Made by a program: the position numbers and the translations under genes
Assembly: GCA_019454105.1 (NCBI GenBank)
Contig: CP075364.1
Location: 809,362 to 873,361, forward strand
Source: Fimbriimonadaceae bacterium
GTDB lineage: Bacteria > Armatimonadota > Fimbriimonadia > Fimbriimonadales > Fimbriimonadaceae
Direction of reading: 5' to 3'
Length of the DNA: 64,000 nt
Shown: positions 40,481-46,913 of the stretch, in pieces
How the letters are laid out: every line of letters starts with the position of its first letter
How positions within the stretch are numbered: position 1 is the stretch's first letter
The notes under the pieces: model-generated
Told to the model about the DNA's origin: nothing
Databases searched by the model: none
Seen by the model: the letters and a program-made list of their open reading frames with translations, nothing else

Positions 40481-40522
40481 GGCCCCCACCCCCTGCCCCC
40501 TCCCCCGTAACGGGGGAGGGGG
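40481..40522 (-). repeat. Single intergenic copy of the hairpin/G-quadruplex repeat
   Basis: A 42-bp element lying 87 bases upstream of the aminotransferase start and 72 bases before the YHS lipoprotein. CCCCCTCCCCCG and CGGGGGAGGGGG form a perfect 12-bp stem with a TAA loop. On the minus strand four G5 tracts are separated by A, CA and T. It is a variant of the 40-bp core repeated inside hom and the acyl-CoA dehydrogenase. Confidence 0.8.
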
Positions 40523-43881: not shown

Positions 43882-45330
43882 GTGGCGAAGACGGTGCGGC
43901 TTGGGTTGCTAGGGTTGGGGACGGTGGGCTCCGGCCTTGTCGAGATCGTCAACAAGAGCGCGGCCACCATCGAGGCCAAGTCCGGCGTCAGGCTCGAGAT
44001 CGTCCGCGCCCTCGTCCGTTCCCAGGGCAAGGCTAGGCCCCTCCCGCCCGGCCAGGTCACCCTGAACCCGGACGACGTGCTCTGCGACCCCGCCATCGAC
44101 ATCGTCGTCGAGGTCATTGGCGGCATCGAGCCCGCCAAATCCTACATCCTCAAGGCCCTGGAGGCCGGGAAGAGCGTGGTCACCGCCAACAAGGCCGTGC
44201 TCGCCACCCACGGGGCCGAGATCTTCTCCAAGTCCACCGAGACCGGGGCCCAGCTCGGCTTTGAGGCCAGCGTCTGCGGCGGCATCCCCCTCATCCGCGC
44301 CCTCAGCAGCGGCCTCATCGCCAACGACATCGACTCCCTCGTCGGCATCCTCAACGGCACCTCCAACTTCATCCTCACCCGGATGTACCGCGACCGCCTG
44401 TCCTACCCAGAGGCCCTCAAGCTCGCCCAGGAGCGCGGCCTGGCCGAGGCCGACCCCAGCTTCGACGTCCAGGGCGTGGACGCCGCCCACAAGCTCATCG
44501 TCCTCACCGAGCTCACCTTCCAGACCAAGGCCACGCTCGACCAGCTCGAGAGGGAAGGGATCGAGCAGATCGAGCCCATCGACATCAAGGTCGCCGACGA
44601 GTTCGGCTTCGTCATCAAGCCGGTGGCGGTGGCCCGGCGCGAGGGCGACCTCCTCGATCTCCGCGTCCACCCCGCCCTCGTGCCCTTCGAGCACCCCCTT
44701 GGCCCCGTCAGCGACGAGTTCAACGCGGTCATGGTGCGGGGCGACGCCATCGGCGAGATGATCTTCCACGGCAAGGGCGCGGGGTCGCTGCCCACCGCCA
44801 GCGCCGTCATGAGCGACATCGTGGAGATCGCCCGCAACCCCGGCGGGGGCGTGATCTGGAACCCGGCCCAGAGCCGCCGCCTCGCCCACATCGAGGGCCG
44901 CTCGCGCTACTACCTGCGACTCCCGATCTTCGACCGCCCCGGCCTCATAGGCAAGATCGGCACCGTGCTGGGCGACCATGGCGTCTCCATCACCCACGTC
45001 ACCGCCCGCCTGAGCCCCTCTCCCGTCCACGGCCCAGACGCCGGGGTGGGGGCGCTTGACCAAGGCCCCTCCCCCGTCCACGGGGGAGGGGTTGGGGTGG
45101 GGGCCAGCGGCCAAGGCCCCTCCCCCGTTCACGGGGGAGGGGTTGGGGTGGGGGCCAGCGGCCAAGGCCCCTCCCCCGTTCACGGGGGAGGGGTTGGGGT
45201 GGGGGCCATCGGTGACACCATGCTTCTCACCCACGAGGCCAAAGAGTCGCAGATCAACCGTGCCCTTGCCGAGATCGAGGCCGCCGGCATCCTCGCCGGC
45301 CCCCCTGTCTCCCTCCGTATCCTCGACTGA
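43882..45330 (+). CDS. hom: Homoserine dehydrogenase with repeat insertion in the ACT domain
   Basis: NAD(P)H-dependent reduction of aspartate semialdehyde to homoserine. Cofactor motif LGLLGLGTVGSGL; active-site region NGTSNFILTRMY and GLAEADPSFDVQGVDAAHKL, with the catalytic Lys in AHKL. The regulatory ACT domain begins SRYYLRLPIFDRPGLIGKIG. Residues 377-444 are four 17-residue repeats (45010-45213) between the ACT strands ITHVTAR and GDTMLLTHEA. The first unit is decayed, the next three nearly identical. Without them the protein is 414 residues, close to normal. The insert may alter feedback control, but the fold can in principle tolerate a loop there. Confidence 0.92.
   Translation: MAKTVRLGLLGLGTVGSGLVEIVNKSAATIEAKSGVRLEIVRALVRSQGKARPLPPGQVTLNPDDVLCDPAIDIVVEVIGGIEPAKSYILKALEAGKSVVTANKAVLATHGAEIFSKSTETGAQLGFEASVCGGIPLIRALSSGLIANDIDSLVGILNGTSNFILTRMYRDRLSYPEALKLAQERGLAEADPSFDVQGVDAAHKLIVLTELTFQTKATLDQLEREGIEQIEPIDIKVADEFGFVIKPVAVARREGDLLDLRVHPALVPFEHPLGPVSDEFNAVMVRGDAIGEMIFHGKGAGSLPTASAVMSDIVEIARNPGGGVIWNPAQSRRLAHIEGRSRYYLRLPIFDRPGLIGKIGTVLGDHGVSITHVTARLSPSPVHGPDAGVGALDQGPSPVHGGGVGVGASGQGPSPVHGGGVGVGASGQGPSPVHGGGVGVGAIGDTMLLTHEAKESQINRALAEIEAAGILAGPPVSLRILD
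45010..45213 (+). repeat. Four tandem 51-bp repeat units inside hom
   Basis: Units at 45010-45060 (decayed), 45061-45111, 45112-45162 and 45163-45213. Units 2 and 3 differ by one base. Each intact unit has stem arms CCCCTCCCCCGT and ACGGGGGAGGGG, then TT-G4-T-G5-CC and an 11-bp linker (AGCGGCCAAGG type). The unit is 17 codons long, so frame is kept; each encodes QGPSPVHGGGVGVGASG or a close variant. Confidence 0.97.
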
Positions 45331-45376: not shown

Positions 45377-46705
45377 TCAGCCTCTCGCCGCGAACTCGCC
45401 TGGGTGCCAGGCAGGAAGCGTGTGCCTGAGCGGCTTGTCAGTCCGGTAGCCCAGTTCGTACTCCGCCTGCATCAGCGTGTGGATCTCGTGCGTCCCTTCG
45501 TAGATCATCGCCCCGCGGCTGTTGCGGAAGTACCGCTCCACCGGGAACTCGTCGCTGTAGCCATACGCCCCGTGGATCTCCACTGCCTTGTTCGCCGCGT
45601 CAAAGGCGGCGGCGCAGTTCGTCCACTTCGCCAGGCTGCACTCCCGGGTGTGCCGCAGGCCCACGTTCTTCATCCAACCGACCTTCTGATACAACAGCCG
45701 CCCCACCTCGCGCCCCTGCACCATCGACGCGATCATCTGCTGCACCAGCTGCTTCTTGCCGATCACCTCGCCCCCGGCCGTCCTTTCGTTCGCGTACTTC
45801 ACGCTCGCGTCCAGGCAAGCCTGGATGAGCCCCACCGCCCCCGCCGCCACCGTGTAGCGCCCGTGGTCGATCGCGCTCATCGCGACCCGGAACCCGTCCC
45901 CTTCCGCGCCGATCAGGCAGTCCGCAGGCACCCGGCAGTCCTCGAAAAAGATCTCGCCCGTGTTCCCGGCCCGCACCCCAAGCTTGCCCTTGATCGGGCG
46001 GCTGGTGAAGCCCGGGAGGGAGCGGTCGACGATGAAGGCGGCGTAGCTCGGCTTGCCGGCCCCCACCCCAACCCCTCCCCCGTGAACGGGGGAGGGGCTC
46101 TCGTTGCTGGCCCCCACCCCAACCCCTCCCCCGTGAACGGGGGAGGGGCTCTCGTTGCTGGCCCCGTCCGCGGCCACCGACCCGCCCACGAGCCGGGCCA
46201 CCACCAGGAACTGGTCGGCGTAGTCGGCGAGGCTGATCCATGTCTTCTGGCCGTTCAGCACATAGGCGTCGCCGTCGCGGCGTGCCGTCGTCTTCAGGTT
46301 GCTGGCGTCGCTGCCGGCCCCGGGCTCGGTGAGGCCGAAGGCGGCGATCCGCTCCCCGGTCGCGAGCTTGGGCAGCCACCGCCGCTTCTGCTCTTCGGTG
46401 CCCCACTGCATGAGGGTCATGGCGTGGAGCCCCACATGGACGCTCATCACGACGCGCGCGGTCGAGTCGGCCCGTTCGAGCTCCTCGCACACGATCCCCA
46501 GCGAGACATAGTCCGCGCCCATCCCGCCATACTCCTGGGGGATGCAGACCCCCAAGAAGCCGGCCTCGCCCATCTTCTTCAGCACCGCCGGGTCGCTTTC
46601 GTGGGCCCGGTCGCGCTCGGCCAAACCGGGCAGGATCACCGTCTGCCCGAACTTGTGGGCGCTCTCGCGGATGAGGTCGTGCTCGGAGGTCGCGGAAAAG
46701 TCCAT
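45377..46705 (-). CDS. Acyl-CoA dehydrogenase with in-frame repeat insertion
   Basis: FAD enzyme forming enoyl-CoA from acyl-CoA (short-chain/glutaryl-like branch). GLTEPGAGSDASNLKTTA and KTWISLADYADQFLVVA line the FAD and substrate sites; the catalytic Glu is in MIYEGTHEIHT. Residues 183-216 are two identical 17-residue repeats (SNESPSPVHGGGVGVGA) in the loop between the strands FLVVARLV and PSYAAFIVDRS of the beta domain. Without them it is 408 residues, near the usual 380-400. The loop is surface-exposed in known structures, so function is probably retained. No electron-transfer flavoprotein gene is nearby. Confidence 0.92.
   Translation of the reverse strand: MDFSATSEHDLIRESAHKFGQTVILPGLAERDRAHESDPAVLKKMGEAGFLGVCIPQEYGGMGADYVSLGIVCEELERADSTARVVMSVHVGLHAMTLMQWGTEEQKRRWLPKLATGERIAAFGLTEPGAGSDASNLKTTARRDGDAYVLNGQKTWISLADYADQFLVVARLVGGSVAADGASNESPSPVHGGGVGVGASNESPSPVHGGGVGVGAGKPSYAAFIVDRSLPGFTSRPIKGKLGVRAGNTGEIFFEDCRVPADCLIGAEGDGFRVAMSAIDHGRYTVAAGAVGLIQACLDASVKYANERTAGGEVIGKKQLVQQMIASMVQGREVGRLLYQKVGWMKNVGLRHTRECSLAKWTNCAAAFDAANKAVEIHGAYGYSDEFPVERYFRNSRGAMIYEGTHEIHTLMQAEYELGYRTDKPLRHTLPAWHPGEFAARG
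46058..46159 (-). repeat. Two identical tandem 51-bp repeat units inside the acyl-CoA dehydrogenase
   Basis: Units at 46058-46108 and 46109-46159 are identical to each other. Their 40-bp core is the same as that of the intact units in hom, read on the opposite genome strand but the same coding strand and frame. The 11-bp linker differs (AGCAACGAGAG here). Confidence 0.97.
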
Positions 46706-46777: not shown

Positions 46778-46810
46778 TCGTCGTCCGTTCGTCGTTCGTT
46801 CGTCGTTCGT
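46778..46810. repeat. Three copies of an 11-bp tandem repeat
   Basis: TCGTCGTTCGT is repeated at 46789-46799 and 46800-46810, with a one-mismatch copy at 46778-46788. It lies in the 262-bp gap between the acyl-CoA dehydrogenase and the beta-barrel gene, 73 bases upstream of the dehydrogenase start. Otherwise this gap holds only the terminator below. Confidence 0.8.
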
Positions 46811-46913
46811 TCACGATCCGAACGACCAAGGCCCGACTTCGCTCGCGCCTCGGGCGGTCAAAGCGTCCAAAATGACCGCCCCAGCCGTGGGGCCGCCCCG
46901 AAAAAGAGGAAAA

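Follow-up and report, generated by a model that had tools for sequence, protein, structure and literature searches.

The homoserine dehydrogenase (Hom) encoded in the analysed stretch of 64,000 nucleotides (the window) carries within its C-terminal ACT domain an in-frame tandem array of 51-bp units, which is absent from the Hom proteins of relatives and displays the sequence layout of a class II intrastrand triplex motif. Elements of this type are dispersed across the genome and recur in frame in other enzymes, including the acyl-CoA dehydrogenase encoded next to hom (Table 1). Very probably, these are selfish or structure-driven repeats, which are kept in genes only when located in frame in tolerant surface loops, where they then grow in tandem.

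Table 1 Positions in the window of hom, its neighbour and the triplex-type elements
Feature	Position	Strand	Basis
Intergenic copy, common genomic form, loop TTA	40482..40522	-	
hom, homoserine dehydrogenase with C-terminal ACT domain, 482 aa	43882..45330	+	ORF; Pfam PF03447, PF00742, PF01842
ACT domain, N-terminal half, residues 346-377	44917..45012	+	Relatives' alignment; Pfam ACT match
Unit 1, diverged, 14/51 mismatches to unit 3; G-arm destroyed, no triplex motif called	45014..45064	+	
Unit 2, 1 mismatch to unit 3; class II triplex motif 45066-45104	45065..45115	+	
Unit 3; class II triplex motif 45117-45155	45116..45166	+	
Unit 4, core identical to unit 3, runs into host sequence; triplex motif 45168-45206	45167..45212	+	
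ACT domain, C-terminal half, residues 444-482; conserved as in relatives	45211..45327	+	
Acyl-CoA dehydrogenase, 442 aa, convergent neighbour of hom	45377..46705	-	
Second in-frame array, two 51-bp units, Hom subtype, inverted; triplex motifs 46059-46097 and 46110-46148	46053..46165	-	TRF

This Hom is the only one detected in the genome. TRF delimits the array at 45014-45212 (period 51, 3.9 copies, 89 % matches), in frame within the Hom ORF, in agreement with an earlier note on this DNA which had placed four in-frame units at 45010-45213. The note had also described 68 residues as added between two strands of the ACT domain; the insert does lie between strands, at the β2-β3 turn, but comprises 66 residues (378-443). 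Before the insert, the Pfam ACT profile is matched at positions 9-34 alone, i.e., by its first half only.

Hom is present in 56 of 61 genomes searched, and none was found in viral contigs. The insert is absent from all 29 aligned relatives, the nearest of which possess a short turn of ~5-7 residues at this site rather than the unrelated long loop considered as an alternative in the earlier note. Aligned relatives with the short turn include genera that are 81 and 77 % identical upstream, and the match to the solved Hom structure 3mtj breaks at the turn and is picked up again after the insert. The ACT half downstream of the insert shares 49-54 % identity with the two nearest relatives (59 % to each other), which is inside the range of 33-59 % observed among relatives; this half thus shows no clear sign of decay. 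Structure prediction of Hom, as proposed in the note, was run from the single sequence and yielded a model too poor for use (mean pLDDT 38.5), which was set aside.

The mismatch counts (Table 1) agree with a diverged unit 1 preceding almost identical units, as previously described. However, most changes in unit 1 sit in one block (from GGGGGAGGGGTT to GGCCCAGACGCC), so that what had been taken for decay may represent one event. The five mismatches of unit 4 to unit 3 are all located at its 3' end (last ten bases), where host sequence resumes. The near identity of the inner units fits later growth and suggests that the array expanded recently, as the note had proposed from the same sequence identity, to which gene conversion might also have contributed. 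The core palindrome occurs five times in the window, as compared to zero in 100 dinucleotide shuffles; two of these five fall beyond the region covered by the note, in the array of the acyl-CoA dehydrogenase. The array is real, and the unit is more than a palindrome. Both the array in the dehydrogenase and the triplex-type nature of the element were missing from the note.

The unit is composed of a C-arm (CCCCTCCCCC), a loop, a G-arm (GGGGGAGGGG), TT and a third arm (GGGGTGGGGG). The latter is a mirror image of the G-arm in which T is placed opposite A, an arrangement that corresponds to the class II (purine-motif) intrastrand triplex of PMC4666352. The ITxF definition given there demands a pyrimidine arm, a purine arm and a 3' reverse-Hoogsteen arm, with stems of 6-15 nt, loops of 1-6 nt and at most one mismatch. 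A motif finder written to this definition called five array copies (each with a stem of 11, loops of 4 and 2, and 1 mismatch) and one intergenic copy in the window, and nothing in five base shuffles. Judged by this motif, the unit belongs to the class II intrastrand-triplex type (BoxC/PIT/TM kind), which denotes a structural class. Assignment to the BoxC/TM_ECO sequence family is not made, because only the first two arms fit the E. coli consensus CCCTCNCCCN3-6GGGNGAGGGN3GGGNGAGGG, the third arm being GGGGTGGGG. According to PMC4666352, class II motifs go by the names BoxC or PIT in E. coli, where they have been linked to local instability, slippage at the structured strand has been proposed for deletions at such motifs, and footprinting in vivo in E. 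coli gave no support for stable triplexes. An Rfam search returned nothing near the gathering score, the matches resembling chance hairpin similarity.

A relaxed form of the motif matches 37 plus 29 (66) sites in the genome (one contig, 2.74 Mb), while the reversed-pattern control matched none; it is found in at least one copy in 44 of 113 genomes of the class. The copies in this genome (about 66) are mostly intergenic, and their common form is CCCCCTCCCCCGTTACGGGGGAGGGGGCAGGGGGTGGGGGC, with a G/C-rich core of ~40 bp. By a strict coding test, only one of 47 elements from sampled loci of this genome outside the window is coding, as compared to 60 % of random positions, and the element hence avoids genes or is purged from them. 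Tandem duplication of the element together with flanking sequence is observed at several places in the genome, and is thus inherent to the element and not specific to hom. Intergenic tandem copies are spaced by, e.g., 116, 127, 130, 146, 149 or 164 bp, none of them a multiple of 3, versus 51 bp in both genic arrays. Two further observations concern repeats elsewhere on the contig. Similar genes (ending in DWDLVNWIVNP) at C1:405081, 1029362, 1222687 and 2489457 all have a triplex-type element directly behind their stop codon, giving the impression that the end of the gene had been copied along with the element. At C1:1371093-1371290, a 44-bp tandem array consists of five truncated palindromes (CCGTCCCCCATGACCGGGGAGGGG type) and forms a separate expansion.

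The units in the acyl-CoA dehydrogenase share 43 of 51 bp with the Hom unit. Both possess the subtype tail TTGGGGTGGGGGCC, which was not seen in the other listed copies, and the remaining spacer differs; therefore, one was probably copied from the other, in inverted orientation and across the ~900 bp between them. The dehydrogenase insert is likewise absent from relatives. Among 102 genomes matched at class level, the match to the dehydrogenase breaks at the array loop in this genome and in that of a member of another genus of the family (G016). The latter contains a different, inverted element pair in the same loop, which looks like an independent second hit. Just upstream of the dehydrogenase start, an 11-bp tandem repeat (TCGTCGTTCGT) is present at 46778-46812 of the window.

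Further in-frame copies in this genome are located in an Eco57I-type methylase, in SufD and in the C-terminal tail of SelD, and those in related genomes in IleRS (G050), RsgA (G035), LeuRS (G004) and Cas4 (G061); two in-frame cases are found in Xanthomonadaceae loci. In IleRS, RsgA and LeuRS, the peptide encoded by the element falls where the alignment to solved structures has a gap or is interrupted. Eight of 12 credited in-frame cases share one common reading phase (codons CCN TCN CCN, i.e., Pro-Ser-Pro, followed by a Gly-rich part). One additional case (G109, locus L182) was left out of the counts, as the N-terminal part of its ORF is possibly non-coding. Given five open phases, a bias of this size has a chance of ~0.0006 for one named phase and ~0.003 allowing any, for cases which come from scanning and of which Hom and its neighbour are not fully independent; a preferred reading phase is thus suggestive only. 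The methylase insert (C1:2109243-2109332) seemingly consists of a pair of dissimilar, adjacent G/C-rich hairpin elements, of which the first is read as SPRLSGGEGEGGDGSG. The LeuRS of G004 displays, in addition to the element pair near residues 475-510, an extra long stretch (~residues 245-340) unmatched by solved LeuRS. No mention of the peptides encoded by the element was found in papers.

The array in Hom invites the view that the insert is kept for a changed threonine feedback, with an extended edge loop of the ACT sheet altering dimer contacts or effector binding and the copy number tuning the effect. The insert indeed splits the domain between β2 and β3, and the nearly identical inner units imply that the copy number may be changing. 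In other bacteria, moreover, changes in the C-terminal part of Hom relieve feedback and spare catalysis. However, an array is also present in the acyl-CoA dehydrogenase, an enzyme without such regulation, and single copies reside in tRNA synthetases, RsgA and SufD, so that no special link to allostery is needed and selection for altered feedback is unlikely. Together with the intergenic arrays, these copies lend no support to the earlier impression that the expansion is peculiar to an allosteric domain. Action at the mRNA level, whereby a stack of hairpins or G-quadruplexes would slow translation or dampen the expression of hom and of the convergent gene next to it, would accord with the predicted fold of the array RNA (-155.8 kcal/mol, the gene's other windows averaging -80.7) and with the four G-runs of each intact unit; the DNA quadruplex option of the folding program gave very large energies, taken as G-run potential only. 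Blocking a core reading frame from within would come at a cost, though, and earlier work reported in PMC4666352 described E. coli elements as devoid of promoter or terminator activity, rendering this explanation quite improbable.

That the copy number or even the entire array is an assembly artefact of G/C-rich repeats could be supposed from its length of ~200 bp, exceeding that of a short read. In view of the single 2.74-Mb contig, units that differ at defined bases, the maintained frame and independent insertions in other genomes, this is very unlikely. Mobilisation as a REP element, by a REP-associated tyrosine transposase (RAYT), is likewise very unlikely and in our view the least probable of these alternatives. 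The short palindrome, its many copies and two Y1_Tnp genes in the genome point in this direction, but the ends of the 81 listed copies and partial copies share neither a GTAG nor a CGTC tag. In a comparison with MITEs, which are defined by target duplication and by terminal inverted repeats shared with a transposon, no conserved flanks were evident across the copies. No transposase for the element was found with the copies in this genome, and none of these lies near either Y1_Tnp gene. Both genes were rejected as cognate transposase, as each has its own repeats. The gene at L140:1017-2236 (C1 near 1575656) has arrays of a different palindrome (ATGCCTCAACCCTGCGAGGGTTGAGGCAT, 45-49 bp spacing) on either side and resembles a RAYT accompanied by a REP family of its own. 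The second gene (L141:1002-1907, C1 near 1597522) is flanked by 45-nt inverted repeats (93 % complementary), with an 11-bp tandem repeat (ACCGACTGTTC) nearby.

Under the preferred explanation of in-frame insertion into a tolerant loop followed by tandem growth, one copy of the element would have entered hom in frame at the β2-β3 turn and then duplicated in tandem together with ~10 bp of flank, plausibly via replication slippage or unequal exchange, aided by a strand prone to form hairpins, triplexes or G-quadruplexes. The simplest route of growth would be replication slippage at the structured strand. The Hom subtype would also have reached the adjacent acyl-CoA dehydrogenase gene, in inverted orientation, and duplicated there as well. 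Most genic copies were presumably lost by selection, and the survivors would be those with frame kept (51 = 3 x 17), no stop codon and a flexible peptide, rich in Pro and Gly, that lies in a surface loop. As a regulatory appendage which some Hom proteins lack, the ACT domain would represent a permissive site. By analogy to the guanylate kinase bearing an RPE, which stays active with altered substrate affinity (PMC2229807), Hom likely tolerates a flexible Pro/Gly-rich loop at the hairpin turn, in which case the protein would continue to function and the effect of the insert would be near-neutral. Considerably bolder, and doubtful, is the extension that triplex-type repeats are a general and still active source of loops in this class and others, hitting the same loops repeatedly in a preferred phase, with the ACT array altering threonine feedback.

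Palindromic elements of Rickettsia, to which the earlier note had compared the array, proved a fitting analogy. RPE of Rickettsia and WPE of Wolbachia are palindromic repeats located in frame in conserved proteins, and in-frame repeats in conserved proteins that are missing from the orthologues were here found for Hom and the dehydrogenase, as well as for IleRS, RsgA and LeuRS by comparison to solved structures. Identity with RPE proper was rejected, since RPEs measure 105-146 bp, differ in sequence, belong to another bacterial group and have no triplex third arm described, in contrast to the G/C-rich core of ~40 bp observed here. Intragenic REPs with GTAG/CGTC tags are likewise inserted in frame (some clusters coding for 43-82 aa), have tRNA synthetases among their targets and hit recB of two Xanthomonas species at roughly the same position (PMC3733652). 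Unlike the present element, they carry the GTAG/CGTC tag and, in the case of GTAG REPs, are linked to RAYTs in many species. Class II motifs of the BoxC/PIT/TM kind are known from E. coli and >260 bacterial genomes (PMC4666352). With these, the element shares the order of C-arm, G-arm and mirrored G-arm, the G/C-richness, many copies, inverted pairs and the tie to local instability, but not the third arm (GGGGTGGGG here, GGGNGAGGG there). Moreover, it has in-frame copies in conserved enzymes, while PMC4666352 treats E. coli copies as intergenic, with no report of coding copies in the parts searched. Among open-access papers, no report of triplex-type elements inserted in frame in proteins was found; earlier ones may exist. 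In-frame palindromes are thus of a known kind, and what appears to be new is the triplex-type element, its tandem growth in an allosteric domain and the repeated hit on the dehydrogenase loop.

Previous descriptions of palindromes inserted in frame come mainly from Rickettsia, Wolbachia and REP-rich bacteria. Judging from its in-frame copies in several other enzymes, the present element is no isolated case but extends proteins by floppy loops repeatedly. Core enzymes of several genera thereby gain loops from a widespread, structurally defined element that is not linked to any known transposase. These enzymes form a natural series in which the tolerance of different loops to insertions can be tested, and tie a motif of DNA-structure instability to protein change.
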